Below are positions 29,813 through 57,218 of a DNA stretch of 64,000 bases, piece by piece; positions within the stretch are counted from its first letter, which is position 1; each line of letters begins with the position of its first letter. Where the stretch lies: NCBI RefSeq assembly GCF_014695585.1, contig NZ_JACJON010000026.1:1-64000 (forward strand), in the 5' to 3' direction. The notes under the pieces are model-generated. The model was not told the DNA's origin and made no database searches. It saw only the letters and a list, made by a program, of their open reading frames with translations. This DNA comes from Microcoleus sp. FACHB-831. Lineage in GTDB: Bacteria; Cyanobacteriota; Cyanobacteriia; Cyanobacteriales; FACHB-T130. Both the position numbers and the translations under genes were made by a program.

Positions 29813-30571
29813 TTATTTCTGGGCAAAATGTGCTAGACGCGATCGCACCAGCAAGTCATTCAGCGCCTCTTTAGCAGAAGTCGTTTCAGGTAAACTACTA
29901 GCCTTACTCGCCGCCTCCAATTCGCCGCACAAATGCTGAAATTGCTGCTGATGAAACTCTATATCAACATCATCTAAAATAGCTTTTTCTGCACCTGACA
30001 ACTTCCTAGCAATTAGATCGGGTATGTATTGCAATTTGAAGGCTTCGTTTAGATGCACTAGATTAGCTTCCACTTCCCCCGTTCGCATTAAATGAATTCC
30101 GGTTAATAGCACCCTGTATATATATAACAATGGCTTAATTCTTCGTTCTTTATCGAAGAGCCGCCATTGCGTTTGGGCAAATCCGAGGTAATGGTGAACG
30201 TGATGGCGCGTAATGCAGTTTTTGGCAGTAACTTTTAATTCTTCATGAGCTGGATTCGTATGAAGAATTAAGGGTGAATAAAGTTGCTCTAAGACATAGC
30301 CGTTCTTTTTGAGTAGTAGGGAAAAGAACTTCTTGATATCGTGAGTTACCAGATCGATTTCCAGCCCATCTTGGAATTGCGATATTTCGATAGTCTCTCG
30401 CCCAGGATCTAGTCCAAGAACTTCCGATACTGGCAAAATGTGCGCTCCCCGCAAGTCATAATCGGAATCTGGCGATGGAAAGCCATACAGATGCGCTCCG
30501 CTTATTGTTGCGAACAAAAGCGGATAAGGCTGATTAGAAATTACATTTGTTAGCTGCTGTTTATTGTCCAT
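29813..30571 (-). CDS. Pol-beta superfamily nucleotidyltransferase (YcgL-like)
   Basis: The 252-residue protein opens with a minimal nucleotidyltransferase motif GAHLYGFPSPDSDYDLRG, with two Asp residues in DSDYD and a third acidic site in LEIDLVTHDIKKF. A helical C-terminal half resembles substrate-binding helices. The canonical motif has Ser after the first Gly; here it is Ala. Relatives are described only as predicted nucleotidyltransferases. The start ATG at 30571 is three bases from the stop of the upstream tandem-domain protein, so the two are translated from one message. The substrate is unknown. Confidence 0.8.
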   Translation of the reverse strand: MDNKQQLTNVISNQPYPLLFATISGAHLYGFPSPDSDYDLRGAHILPVSEVLGLDPGRETIEISQFQDGLEIDLVTHDIKKFFSLLLKKNGYVLEQLYSPLILHTNPAHEELKVTAKNCITRHHVHHYLGFAQTQWRLFDKERRIKPLLYIYRVLLTGIHLMRTGEVEANLVHLNEAFKLQYIPDLIARKLSGAEKAILDDVDIEFHQQQFQHLCGELEAASKASSLPETTSAKEALNDLLVRSRLAHFAQK

Positions 30572-30574
30572 ATT

Positions 30575-31261
30575 TTAACGGAGTTTTTCTGCCTTGCAGT
30601 ATAGCTTTGTTGGCGCTTCACCGAAGTATTTAAATAAGGCAGGACAGAGCCAACCCTCCATATTTTTTTGCTCCCAGTTATACCAGTTTCCGCCGTACTC
30701 GTTTCTTTGCCAAATAAGTTCTGCTTGATATCCTGGAAAAGGGTTTCCAGAAAACAAAAGCTTGAAACCTTTTTCGGCATTCGGGATATCCTCAACGAGA
30801 ATATCAATCATCTGCGGTATACCGCTAACAAATGGCTCCCGTACAAGTCCGACTCGTTCATCGTCAAACACCCAGGTATGCTCGCACCGATAGGGGAAAA
30901 TAACCATCATTGCGTTAGACATCGGTTCAGCCTTACAGTAAATTTTTTGTGGCGCTACACTAAAATACTTGAACAATGGTGGACTTAGCCACCCTTCTAA
31001 ATTTTTATCTCCCCAGCTATACCAGTTACCGCCATACTGTTCTTTCACCCAAATTAATTCTGCTTGATACTCTGAAAAAGGCACTAGGGAAAACAACAGT
31101 TTAAACCCTTTATCGGCATTGGGAATATCCCCAGCGAGAGCATCAATTATTGCAGGCATACCGCTGACAAAGGGTTCTTTGATAAGCCCAATAGTCTCAT
31201 AGTCAAATACCCAATAATCTTCATGCCGATAAGGAAAAATTACTATCTTTGTGTCGAACAT
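30575..31261 (-). CDS. Tandem-duplicated DUF6717-like protein
   Basis: The roughly 228-residue protein consists of two near-identical units of about 110 residues. Each unit runs from IVIFPYR or MVIFPYR through WVFD, EPFVSG-P, GFKLLFS and YQAELIW to GGNWY, EGWL-P-LFKYF and YCKAE. This family resembles DUF6717 as I recall it. No catalytic motif is apparent; the aromatic-rich core suggests a binding role. I place the start at ATG 31261 because the 17 residues upstream do not match the start of the second unit. It is translationally adjacent to the nucleotidyltransferase gene. Confidence 0.65.
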   Translation of the reverse strand: MFDTKIVIFPYRHEDYWVFDYETIGLIKEPFVSGMPAIIDALAGDIPNADKGFKLLFSLVPFSEYQAELIWVKEQYGGNWYSWGDKNLEGWLSPPLFKYFSVAPQKIYCKAEPMSNAMMVIFPYRCEHTWVFDDERVGLVREPFVSGIPQMIDILVEDIPNAEKGFKLLFSGNPFPGYQAELIWQRNEYGGNWYNWEQKNMEGWLCPALFKYFGEAPTKLYCKAEKLR

Positions 31262-31415
31262 AAAATTACTCTCAATAAGGAATTTTGTGGGTAGGCAAAA
31301 GCTCCTAGCCATAGTTACCAGGCGGGAGATTGGTAACTAGAATATCCCCGCTCTGCATCGACAGTGAGGCGCACGTTAACATTTATTAAGACCACTAGGA
31401 GCGATCGCTTCATAT

Positions 31416-54149: not shown

Positions 54150-57100
54150 ATGTCTAATCAAAAAATGGCCACCAGCCGCGAGGTTTACAACCGCATCCTA
54201 TGGGATGCACGGTTAGATCGCCACGCCTTTACAATCGGCTATTTAGAACGCACATCTGAAGTAAAACTCCGCTCTAAACCGCTAGCGGAATGGGAAGCTA
54301 ATGGCGACATACCCTGGCATCGCATCCGCTACATAAGCTGTGGAGAGACAATAGTTTGGGATCGCGATCGCCACTTGGATCTCGTCTCTATAGGACAGCT
54401 ACCCGCCGCTGCATGGACGGCGCAATTAGGGGAGCAAGATCTTCCGCTTATAGCAACGCCATTTTCACCAAAACCAATATACCGATATGGTTCCCAAGGT
54501 TGGCAACCGAGCGACGAGCTACCTGAGTCTGTTCCATCGAGTGCTTTGACCATCGTTAGTTTTAACGTGCTGTGCGATACATACGAGCAGGAACGCATCC
54601 AGACAGAAAAGCGGATTCCAGCGATCGCCAGCCATCTACGCAACTGCGATGCGGATATCATAGCGCTACAGGAAGTGACGCGATCGCTGCTAGATAACCT
54701 TTTAGAACTCGATTGGGTGCGCGGCTACTTCATCTCGGAACCGCCAGAAGCCTCAACGCTGGAACGCTATGGCCTTTTGATCCTGTCGCGGCTGCCGTTT
54801 ACCCTAGTCGAGCATCGGTACTCGGCGCACAAGCAGGTATTAGTGGGAACGTGGCAGATAAACGAGCGATCGCTGCATGTAGCTGTAGTACATTTAACAA
54901 GCAATCGCGGCCACAACGCAATGGAAAAACGGGCGGTTCAACTAAACTTGTTGCTCGATTACCTAAAAACGCAGCCGGGAGATTGCGCGATCGCCGGAGA
55001 CTTCAACACCAGAGGCGACGAACAACAAGATCTGTTAACTAAAAGCGGCTTTGTTGATGTCTGGAAAGAATTGCATCCTCTTGAAGAAGGTTATACTTTT
55101 GACCCTCACCGCAACACGCTAGCAGCAATAATGACCATAAGTAACGAGGCGGCGCGGTTCGATCGCATCCTGCTACGCGCCGCAGATGGGCGCTGGCTAC
55201 CGCGTTCTATGGAAATATTCGCCTGCGAACCCATACCGGAGGCTGAAGGAACCCTCTATGCCTCGGATCATTTTGGCGTGCGTGCGGTTCTAGAATGCTC
55301 TATGCAGACAACCGCCTCTTTGCGTGCGGTGCGCCCTGTATATCAGAGCGCTGTCGTAGTAATTCCACCTGCTGAAGTTTGGTCAGCAATTCAGGCAATT
55401 CGCCGCCGTTACGATCGCCAGATCGACCGTTGGATGCCTCACATCACATTGATTTATGGCTTTGTTCCAGAGGAGTATTTTGAGGAAGCAGCGCAAGCGA
55501 TCGCGCGATCGCTTGCTGTTGTTGAGCCTTTTGAGATAACCCTTTCAGGCTTCGACACCTTCGAGCATCGCTCTAGCAGCACCGCTTGGTTGCGACCTGT
55601 TACCCAGCCAGAACGAGCCTTACATCAGTTGCAAGCAGTCTTACAGCAGCTATTTCCGCAGTGCGACGAGCAAAGCAAGAAATCGCCTGCGGGTTTTACG
55701 CCGCATCTGAGCGTGGGACAGTTCAAGAGCGTACAAGAAGCGATCGCGCAGCTTCCTTCCTGGCATCCAATAAGCTTTCCTGTAGAATCTGTTGCTCTAA
55801 TTAGTCGTCGCGGCGATGAACCTTTCGAGGTTAGATATCTCGTACCCTTGGGGAAGGAAATTAAAGACACCGCCCTCATTGCTGGAACAGGCGAATCTTT
55901 TACGCAAAATCCAAAATTGAATAGCCTGATACAGCTAGTTAGCAACCTTGAGCCAGAATTAAGCCAAGCACAGCGAGAACATCGCGAAACAATTCTGTCT
56001 CTCGTGGCGCAAGCAATAGCGGAGTGTTTGGGTTATCAGCCATCGCTGCATCTCGTGGGTTCGGCGCGTCTGGGCGTGCAAAGTCCGCAAAGCGATTTGG
56101 ATGTTGTTTGTCTGATTCCTACTTATATGTCGGGCGAGCAGTTTTTATTAAGCGTGCGGGAGAGATTGTCAGGGTTGTGCGATCGCTCGCAGGTGGTTAA
56201 AGATGCAAGGATGCCAGCGTTGAGGATGCAGATAGAAGGCGTGTCTGTCGATTTGCTTTATGCTTGCACTCCTAACGATTTCCAACTGGAAAATCCAAAA
56301 TCTAAGATCCAAAATCGTGTAAATGATTTCGATCCGCTTAGTTGGAAAGCACTTGTGGGTTGTTTGGAAGCTGACGCGATCGCTGATACTGTAATTCCTC
56401 GCATCCCGTTAGATTCTTTCCGCGTGCTGTTGCGTGCTACCCGTGCGTGGGCAAAAGCACGCCAAATACACGGCAATGCGTGGGGTTTTGTCGGCAACTT
56501 TTCCATCGCCTTGCTGACTGCTTGGAGCTGTGCAAATTATCCACAAAATGTTGAGGATGCAGGAATTGAAAGGCTGCTACAACATTTTTTCCAGGCGCTA
56601 GCCGAACACGATTGGAGCTATCCCATCGCGCTGACTGAAGCTGGCAGACATTACAACGTGCGCCTTCCCCGCGACTGGATGCCTATAGTTACTTCAATTG
56701 AGCCATGTCAAAACAGTGCGCGAAATGTGTCGCGTTCGACAGCAGAGATTTTGCGCCGTGAATTCGTTCGCGGTGCGGAGATTGTAGAGCGGGCTTTAGC
56801 TGGCGAAATCGGTTGGGAAATGCTGTTTGAGTCAGCAGATCTCAAGGCGCAATCAAGCCTGTTTTTAGTGCTGAGTGCGACAATTGAAGACAGCGATCGC
56901 TCTTTATCCGCCTGCGGTTGGCTGGAAGGACGCATAATTGGATTGGCCATTAATTTGGAACAGCAAATTGATGTTTGCGTAAGACCTTGGCCGGGAATAA
57001 GGAAGGATCAAAATAAAATTAGCGCGATACTGGGTTTGGAGCTTCCTAAAGATTGCGATCGCGTTTCATGGCTCGAAGCCAATGGCGCTGTAATACAACT

Positions 57101-57218
57101 TCTTGCCCAAAACTTTGTAAGTCAGTTCAACAATTCCTTTGCCGATTCTAATAGCATTGCTTTGGTTAGCCTGCTGTGCGATCGCCAAGATTTTGGCCAA
57201 CTTTACCCCAATTTATGA
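54150..57218 (+). CDS. Four-domain RNA-end processing protein (MJ1316-like, EEP, 2H, poly(A) polymerase)
   Basis: The 1022-residue protein joins four modules. Residues about 8-85 match the MJ1316/DUF504 RNA-end recognition domain (REVYNRILWDARLD, IPWHRIRYI). Residues 133-390 are an EEP nuclease/phosphatase with Asn139, Glu175 (LQEV), Asp284/Asn286 (GDFNT) and His374 (SDHFG). Residues about 395-575 are a 2H phosphoesterase with His431-x-Thr433 and His519-x-Ser521. Residues about 610-1000 are a poly(A)-polymerase-type nucleotidyltransferase with GSARLG, Asp649, Asp651 and Asp701. Together these suggest RNA 3'-end or cyclic-phosphate repair followed by nucleotide addition. A heptamer repeat encodes residues 715-723. 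No signal peptide is seen. The RNA substrate is unknown. Confidence 0.85.
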   Translation: MSNQKMATSREVYNRILWDARLDRHAFTIGYLERTSEVKLRSKPLAEWEANGDIPWHRIRYISCGETIVWDRDRHLDLVSIGQLPAAAWTAQLGEQDLPLIATPFSPKPIYRYGSQGWQPSDELPESVPSSALTIVSFNVLCDTYEQERIQTEKRIPAIASHLRNCDADIIALQEVTRSLLDNLLELDWVRGYFISEPPEASTLERYGLLILSRLPFTLVEHRYSAHKQVLVGTWQINERSLHVAVVHLTSNRGHNAMEKRAVQLNLLLDYLKTQPGDCAIAGDFNTRGDEQQDLLTKSGFVDVWKELHPLEEGYTFDPHRNTLAAIMTISNEAARFDRILLRAADGRWLPRSMEIFACEPIPEAEGTLYASDHFGVRAVLECSMQTTASLRAVRPVYQSAVVVIPPAEVWSAIQAIRRRYDRQIDRWMPHITLIYGFVPEEYFEEAAQAIARSLAVVEPFEITLSGFDTFEHRSSSTAWLRPVTQPERALHQLQAVLQQLFPQCDEQSKKSPAGFTPHLSVGQFKSVQEAIAQLPSWHPISFPVESVALISRRGDEPFEVRYLVPLGKEIKDTALIAGTGESFTQNPKLNSLIQLVSNLEPELSQAQREHRETILSLVAQAIAECLGYQPSLHLVGSARLGVQSPQSDLDVVCLIPTYMSGEQFLLSVRERLSGLCDRSQVVKDARMPALRMQIEGVSVDLLYACTPNDFQLENPKSKIQNRVNDFDPLSWKALVGCLEADAIADTVIPRIPLDSFRVLLRATRAWAKARQIHGNAWGFVGNFSIALLTAWSCANYPQNVEDAGIERLLQHFFQALAEHDWSYPIALTEAGRHYNVRLPRDWMPIVTSIEPCQNSARNVSRSTAEILRREFVRGAEIVERALAGEIGWEMLFESADLKAQSSLFLVLSATIEDSDRSLSACGWLEGRIIGLAINLEQQIDVCVRPWPGIRKDQNKISAILGLELPKDCDRVSWLEANGAVIQLLAQNFVSQFNNSFADSNSIALVSLLCDRQDFGQLYPNL
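56291..56316. repeat. Heptamer repeat inside the RNA-processing gene
   Basis: AATCCAA, AATCTAA, GATCCAA and AATCG are consecutive here and encode NPKSKIQNR in frame, the same peptide as in the 1681-residue kinase. Confidence 0.85.

Follow-up and report, generated by a model that had tools for sequence, protein, structure and literature searches.

A four-module MJ1316-EEP-2H-poly(A) polymerase chain in bacteria: a probable RNA 3'-end processing enzyme associated with RNA ligase and HD-Pnk-like genes

Introduction

Cut RNA can be healed and sealed by systems of HD-Pnk and an ATP-dependent RNA ligase, as with the HD-Pnk of Runella slithyformis. Such healing-and-sealing systems, the nucleotidyltransferase (NTase) RlaP, and the MJ1316 domain together with its eukaryotic repair fusions are already in print. 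RlaP is predicted to put back, ahead of ligation, nucleotides that RloC-like nucleases have removed (PMC7824862), and RloC is described as excising the wobble nucleotide (PMC2610378). The MJ1316 domain is stated, after earlier work, to bind cyclic-phosphate RNA ends (PMC6514570). Here we describe a gene of Microcoleus sp. FACHB-831, located at 54150..57218 on the plus strand of a 64,000-nucleotide stretch of contig NZ_JACJON010000026.1 (referred to as the window), whose product combines an MJ1316 domain, an EEP-fold domain, a 2H phosphoesterase domain and a poly(A) polymerase (PAP) in one chain. The association of this chain with ligase and HD-Pnk-like genes is well supported. The chain is probably a multifunctional enzyme that assists ligase/HD-Pnk RNA repair by cleaning damaged RNA 3' ends and extending them again.

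Architecture of the chain

The open reading frame (ORF) extends from the ATG at 54150 to a stop codon ending at 57218 and encodes 1022 amino acids (aa). Pfam gives the module order MJ1316-EEP-2H-PAP with every module above its curated cut-off, in agreement with an earlier note on this DNA, which had read the same four modules from the letters alone. The key residues named in that note sit at the positions given there, and in a 20-row alignment of chain proteins from four phyla, to which all residue counts below refer, E175, D284, H374, H431, H519, D649, D651 and D701 are invariant (20/20). An assembly artefact was considered and rejected: since the identical architecture recurs in many genomes, the chain is a genuine single gene and not an assembly fusion. 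The AlphaFold2 model of the full chain has a mean pLDDT of 84.2, with low confidence at residues 92-103, 571-590 and 713-718, and its low pTM (0.48) leaves the relative arrangement of the domains unestablished.

Extra in-frame repeat-like stretches were observed in some copies (L010, L021, L064, L046, and L007) at the EEP-2H and 2H-PAP linkers or within PAP. The window copy also seems to contain a short one near aa 715-733 (about 56292-56348). This would suggest that insertions between modules are tolerated.

The MJ1316 domain (aa 6-72; 54165..54365, plus strand) matched PF04457 at 4.4e-19, with a score of 69.4 bits against a gathering score of 26.3. By analogy with the published domain, it is proposed to be the part of the chain that holds cyclic RNA ends. 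The domain was modelled confidently (54159-54425 of the window; mean pLDDT 90.3). No solved relative was detected by sequence (E up to 1) or by fold (E up to 0.001), and the best VIA Z was only 3.1, which does not in itself demonstrate a new fold. In the order to which the window belongs, the Pfam model matched 13 of 195 genomes, ten of which have the full chain. The other three have an MJ1316-2H protein (G050), MJ1316 alone (G096), and MJ1316 joined to PAP without EEP and 2H in a fragmented assembly (G108). Shorter MJ1316-2H proteins without EEP and PAP were observed in a cyanobacterial metagenome-assembled genome (MAG; L069, 4806-5783) and in a Streptomyces exfoliatus plasmid (L032, 4298-5158).

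The EEP-fold domain (about aa 129-385; 54534..55304, plus strand) matched Pfam Exo_endo_phos at residues 137-374 (1.7e-15) and a TDP2 profile at 3.5e-19. Its model (131-385) was superposed on TDP2 with a VIA Z of 28.6 over 237 residues at 2.1 Å. The residues N139, E175, H248, S251, D284, N286, D373 and H374 are invariant (20/20) and match the TDP2 catalytic set (N, E, D-x-N and S-D-H plus H-x-x-S) on the EEP fold, and the stretches HxxS, DVW, YT-x-D and RxDRI align with TDP2. By profile and predicted fold the domain is closest to TDP2, and we designate it as TDP2-like, not as a TDP2; the EEP assignment of the earlier note was correct, while this TDP2-like character had been overlooked. An ANGEL2/CCR4-type EEP, considered for the 3'-phosphate removal of ANGEL2, was rejected as the best matches are TDP2, and the match of CNOT6L to the EEP profile was confined to the first quarter. 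Separate ORFs of ~290-317 aa that are 31-33% identical to the EEP domain are present in five genomes of the order (L013, L014, L015, L017, and L018), and the match in L014 contains one stop.

The relationship to TDP2, both in the closest profile and fold relatives and in the aligned stretches, would also suit adduct removal, in which the EEP domain unlinks a peptide, nucleotide or other adduct from the RNA 5' or 3' end in the manner of TDP2, so that the chain would act on adducted RNA instead of cyclic-phosphate ends. A substrate cannot be read from fold similarity, however, and the MJ1316 and 2H modules indicate cyclic-phosphate ends. We consider adduct removal improbable.

The 2H phosphoesterase domain (aa 406-557; 55365..55820, plus strand) matched Pfam 2_5_RNA_ligase2 at 2.9e-39, and its solved relative is BSU11850 (2d4g, 4.8e-7). 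The two motifs are H431-x-T/N and H519-x-S/T, and both histidines are invariant. The earlier note had also listed T433 and S521 as key residues. Both are present in the window protein but vary among relatives: position 433 is T in 9 and N in 11 rows, and position 521 is S in 13 and T in 7, so that the second motif has S or T in 20/20.

The C-terminal module (aa 583-1020; 55896..57209, plus strand) appears to be a complete canonical PAP consisting of NTase, central and RRM-like RNA-binding domains. A profile built from 20 relatives matched human PAP-gamma at 3.4e-66, and the model of residues 583-1020 was superposed on PAP-gamma with a VIA Z of 38.2 over 413 residues at 2.2 Å. Pfam detected the NTase (PAP_NTPase, aa 636-711, within the same interval and strand; 3.3e-7) and the central domain (PF04928, PAP_central, aa 756-894; 56415..56831, plus strand; 5.4e-24). 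The RNA-binding domain (about aa 904-1011; 56859..57182, plus strand) is predicted from the secondary structure of the model, with the element order strand-helix-strand-strand-helix-strand, and the PAP alignments extend into it. The re-tailing module of the earlier note was a PAP as supposed, and its completeness, with a C-terminal RNA-binding domain, had been overlooked. G637, S638, D649, D651 and D701, which constitute the GS motif and the three catalytic aspartates, are invariant (20/20). N776 is N in 17/20 rows and K769 is K in 13/20, and H774 also varies among members; K769 and H774 presumably match ATP-contact residues of canonical PAP. ATP specificity and poly(A) synthesis are predicted from the family.

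The NTase also gave weak matches to CBASS cyclases (NCBIfam, 8.5e-5; PADLOC, 3e-5), and some enzymes of the 2H and EEP families cleave 2'-5' oligoadenylate. A nucleotide-signal circuit was therefore considered, in which the NTase, like OAS and CBASS cyclases, makes 2'-5' oligoadenylate-like or cyclic oligonucleotide signals that are broken down by the 2H and EEP domains. In the profile search of solved structures, however, the canonical PAP match was 3.4e-66 and included the RNA-binding domain, against 1.9e-4 for a CdnC chain, and NCBIfam NF041116 (CBASS oligonucleotide cyclase) scored 21.8 bits against a cut-off of 200. The ten recurring or nearby neighbour ORFs scanned, in what was not a systematic effector search, were ABC-transporter parts, kinases, WD40 and other housekeeping-type genes. 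CBASS/OAS-like signalling was rejected as the principal interpretation because the cyclase matches are far weaker than the PAP match, and we regard it as very unlikely.

Association with RNA ligase and HD-Pnk-like genes

A scan of genome contigs yielded 38 loci, 32 of which are full length. L060 was counted among the 32 although its ORF is split near the end, whereas L061, L062, L067 (partial), L069 (MJ1316-2H), L070 and L071 (MJ1316 only) were not counted. Fifteen of these 32 loci have, in one cluster with the chain gene, both an RNA_ligase (PF09414) gene and an HD/AAA_33 (P-loop kinase) gene, designated as HD-Pnk-like, and at one further locus (L056) the HD-Pnk-like gene alone lies beside the chain at a contig end. 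Neighbour genes were called with a simple longest-ORF caller, and the partners were identified by Pfam on representatives and as phmmer relatives for the remaining members. Fourteen of the 15 clusters are cyanobacterial, with ligase, HD-Pnk-like and chain genes in that order on one strand. No other called ORF lies among the three genes in 13 of these, and L054 has one ORF between the ligase and HD-Pnk-like genes. In Argonema, 4 bases are shared by the ligase and HD-Pnk-like ORFs, with the chain beginning ~11 or 35 bases past the HD-Pnk-like stop depending on which of the two likeliest starts is used; gaps elsewhere are mostly longer. The 15th locus, in Xanthocytophaga (Bacteroidota), has the order ligase, second ligase, chain, 110-aa ORF, and HD-Pnk-like, and the second ligase is Rnl2-type with the T4 Rnl2 C-terminal domain. 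A search with the ligase profile, at E up to 0.001, detected no relative of known structure.

The chain and the partner genes also co-occur in genomes. Within the window's order, every one of the 10 genomes with the chain also contains both partners (10/10), while each partner gene occurs in 26/195 genomes and both together in 24. Among the 19 genomes or records covered out of 20 locus handles (L029 and Nonomuraea excluded), the HD-Pnk-like gene was found in 16/19 and the ligase in 15/19; without G211, where the partners are clustered with the chain, the values are 15/18 and 14/18. In the genome of the window itself, a different contig (C37) carries consecutive genes for ligase, HD-Pnk-like protein and RlaP. 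The hypergeometric p value for co-occurrence in the order is about 3e-10, or about 1e-5 by genus.

Several points weigh against a functional link of the chain with these genes. The p values ignore tree relatedness, and the 26/195 counts include a few partial or interrupted copies. Neither partner was seen near the chain in 16 of the 32 loci, three of which (L042, L046, and L048) have less than 1.6 kb upstream, and the window's own locus has no ligase or HD-Pnk-like gene near the chain. Both partners are absent from the two Embleya replicons (one replicon each searched) and from G209, a 3.5 Mb genome, and Microscilla has no ligase match. Some partner matches are split or contain stops (for example, ligase in G195 and HD-Pnk-like in G202), and for the Xanthocytophaga HD-Pnk-like gene the kinase half is all that Pfam recognises. 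Among solved structures, the HD-Pnk-like kinase half matches L-seryl-tRNA kinase best (7.8e-14), T4 Pnk being weaker (1.3e-5). The label HD-Pnk is our assumption, taken from the order of HD and P-loop kinase domains.

The surroundings of the loci were also surveyed. On either side of the window's chain gene lie minus-strand genes, one for a CHAT-domain protein and one for a PadR-type regulator. In the ten representatives scanned, the other recurring neighbour families are ABC-transporter parts, WD40/protein kinase, histidine kinase and Calothrix synteny genes. Pfam on some neighbours of unlinked loci (L057, L065, L068, L028, L029, L036, L041, and L045) gave nothing RNA-related, Rfam gave no match in the window or in six loci, and a promoter/terminator scan was at chance level. 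The tRNA scan found none in the window and one tRNA-Arg across 37 loci, and thus no linked RNA substrate. In one genome of the order, a short chain remnant with stops (G055, C21:49998-50213, L020) shares its contig with ligase and HD-Pnk-like genes close by, which suggests loss of the chain.

Coexistence with RlaP

The window contains a second RNA-repair-type NTase, RlaP (PF10127, 6.5e-54), adjoining a DUF6717 gene; the pair occupies 29813-30571 and 30575-31312 on the minus strand. In the order, RlaP was found in 25 of the 26 ligase-bearing genomes, including all 10 with the chain, a count confined to ligase-bearing genomes and hence silent on linkage of RlaP. The idea that PAP replaces RlaP was rejected on these counts: RlaP is present in all 10 of these chain-bearing genomes, so PAP is no substitute for it. 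The coexistence of this predicted refilling NTase with the chain also counts against a refilling role of the PAP module.

Distribution of the chain

Full-length chains were found in Cyanobacteriota, Bacteroidota, Acidobacteriota and Actinomycetota. The 32 full-length loci comprise 28 cyanobacterial ones, Microscilla and Xanthocytophaga (Bacteroidota), and two Acidobacteriota MAGs. A search of a plasmid collection gave 7 records, 4 of them covering at least 80% of the query, and added three actinomycetotal records with 29-31% identity, two from Embleya and one from Nonomuraea, as well as a conjugative plasmid of Calothrix. Two copies are present in Calothrix brevissima NIES-22 (L060 and L043), the one on the main record being split near its end and the one on the conjugative plasmid intact. 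Scans of phages and of one set of viral contigs revealed no relative of the chain.

The chain is rare. In the window's order, 20/195 genomes gave some match and 10 have the full chain by our reading, with G108, G050, G096, G055 and G043 not counted as full. A draw from the phylum gave matches in 3/339 genomes, two with the full chain, one of which is the genome of the window. The only match among 295 genomes drawn from the class of G211 was the centre genome itself. The genome sets overlap, as L035, L052, L055, L056, L069 and L070 are the hits in G074, G107, G178, G176, G050 and G096, respectively. When 20 rows were placed in a midpoint-rooted tree, a long branch (100/100) separated the three actinobacterial proteins, and deep forks among the non-actinobacterial proteins were not resolved.

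Proposed role

The earlier note had proposed that a damaged RNA end is processed and then re-tailed. This general idea gains support from the ligase and HD-Pnk-like neighbours and from co-occurrence, whereas the step order and chemistry, like the substrate, the purpose and the choice of refilling over tailing for decay, are what we infer. The MJ1316 domain would dock on RNA ends with 2',3'-cyclic phosphate left by toxin-type ribonucleases, and the 2H domain would open the cyclic phosphate, a reaction that would fit its fold. The TDP2-like EEP domain would then remove the remaining block (phosphate, terminal nucleotide, or adduct) to leave a clean hydroxyl. Trimming, the role given to this domain in the earlier note, is one possibility, yet the best match, TDP2, is an end-unblocking phosphodiesterase. 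The canonical PAP would add nucleotides back to replace residues lost to trimming or excision, HD-Pnk would phosphorylate the 5' end, and the ligase would seal. The chain seems to be a partner of the ligase and kinase and not a self-contained pathway.

Taken as a whole, these steps would constitute a bacterial cut-back-and-refill RNA repair, in which recognition of the 3' end, opening of the cyclic phosphate, removal of the blocked terminus and resynthesis by PAP precede rejoining by HD-Pnk and ligase. We put this forward tentatively, as a possibility that is less likely to be right than wrong. The idea of refilling by PAP draws on the published reasoning for RlaP and on the excision of the wobble nucleotide by RloC. 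An RNA from which nucleotides are missing is beyond the reach of simple healing and sealing. If true, the pathway would be for RNA what end-processing is for the joining of DNA double-strand breaks, and would be able to reverse nucleotide-excising tRNA damage such as that caused by RloC. With recognition, cyclic-phosphate opening, cleaning and polymerase in one protein beside a kinase and a ligase, refilling is testable with purified proteins.

The proposal has difficulties of its own. HD-Pnk removes 2',3'-cyclic and 3'-phosphates itself, so that the 2H and EEP domains look partly redundant; the pair may handle ends that HD-Pnk does not process. Unless tail length were controlled, free tailing by the polymerase would be harmful to tRNA repair, and the enzymatic activity of the chain is a prediction from its domains and models.

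The strongest rival to refilling is tailing for decay, as the polymerase is a full PAP with an RNA-binding domain and RlaP is already available for refilling. The chain would recognise cut, cyclic-ended RNAs, clean their ends and add a poly(A) or other tail that guides 3'-5' exonucleases to fragments that the ligase should not rejoin. There is a precedent in ANGEL2, an EEP-family (CCR4-type) enzyme which is reported to clean the 3' phosphate before mitochondrial PAP acts (PMC9525292). The clustering and co-occurrence with the ligase and kinase, on the other hand, indicate joining rather than decay, and we judge tailing for decay to be unlikely, although less so than the adduct and signalling alternatives.

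Comparison with known systems

The HD-Pnk/ATP-dependent RNA ligase systems of end healing and sealing have the same kind of partner genes as those found in the cluster or genome of the chain, including the order of HD followed by P-loop kinase. To our knowledge, the two-gene HD-Pnk/ligase system does not include an MJ1316-EEP-2H-PAP chain. The earlier note knew of no experimentally defined bacterial pathway with this exact chain, which agrees with our literature search. In what that search covered, no description was found of the four-module chain or of a connection with ligase and HD-Pnk; the paper of Burroughs and Aravind (2016), outside its scope, may well mention the chain.

RlaP-containing RNA-repair systems, for which PMC7824862 and PMC6514570 cite Burroughs and Aravind, resemble the present one in having a pol-beta-superfamily NTase together with an RNA ligase and in the predicted restoration of nucleotides. 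The NTase of the chain differs in being a canonical PAP with an RNA-binding domain that is fused to three end-processing modules and coexists with RlaP. The Hen1-containing repair machinery shares the multi-activity healing and sealing of ribotoxin-cut RNA, but its third component is the 2'-O-methyltransferase Hen1, and the available excerpts mention no PAP, 2H or MJ1316 module.

Individual modules also have relatives elsewhere. MJ1316-domain proteins such as LENG9 share that domain with the chain, and eukaryotic fusions of it to RNA-repair domains are on record; LENG9 differs in being described with a CCCH zinc finger and a cyclic-end domain (PMC9635633). TDP2 shares the fold, the catalytic residue set and several aligned motifs with the EEP domain, which differs in belonging to an RNA-repair-type fusion and in an identity of about 20-28% in fold alignments; no evidence indicates that it shares the phosphotyrosyl substrate of TDP2. 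Canonical eukaryotic PAPs (PAP-alpha, PAP-gamma, yeast Pap1, and Pla1) have all three domains and the catalytic aspartates in common with the chain, whose PAP differs in being bacterial, in its fusion to MJ1316, EEP and 2H modules, and in the variable positions of K769 and H774. The chain places what appears to be a complete eukaryotic-type PAP in four bacterial phyla, in an RNA-repair setting.

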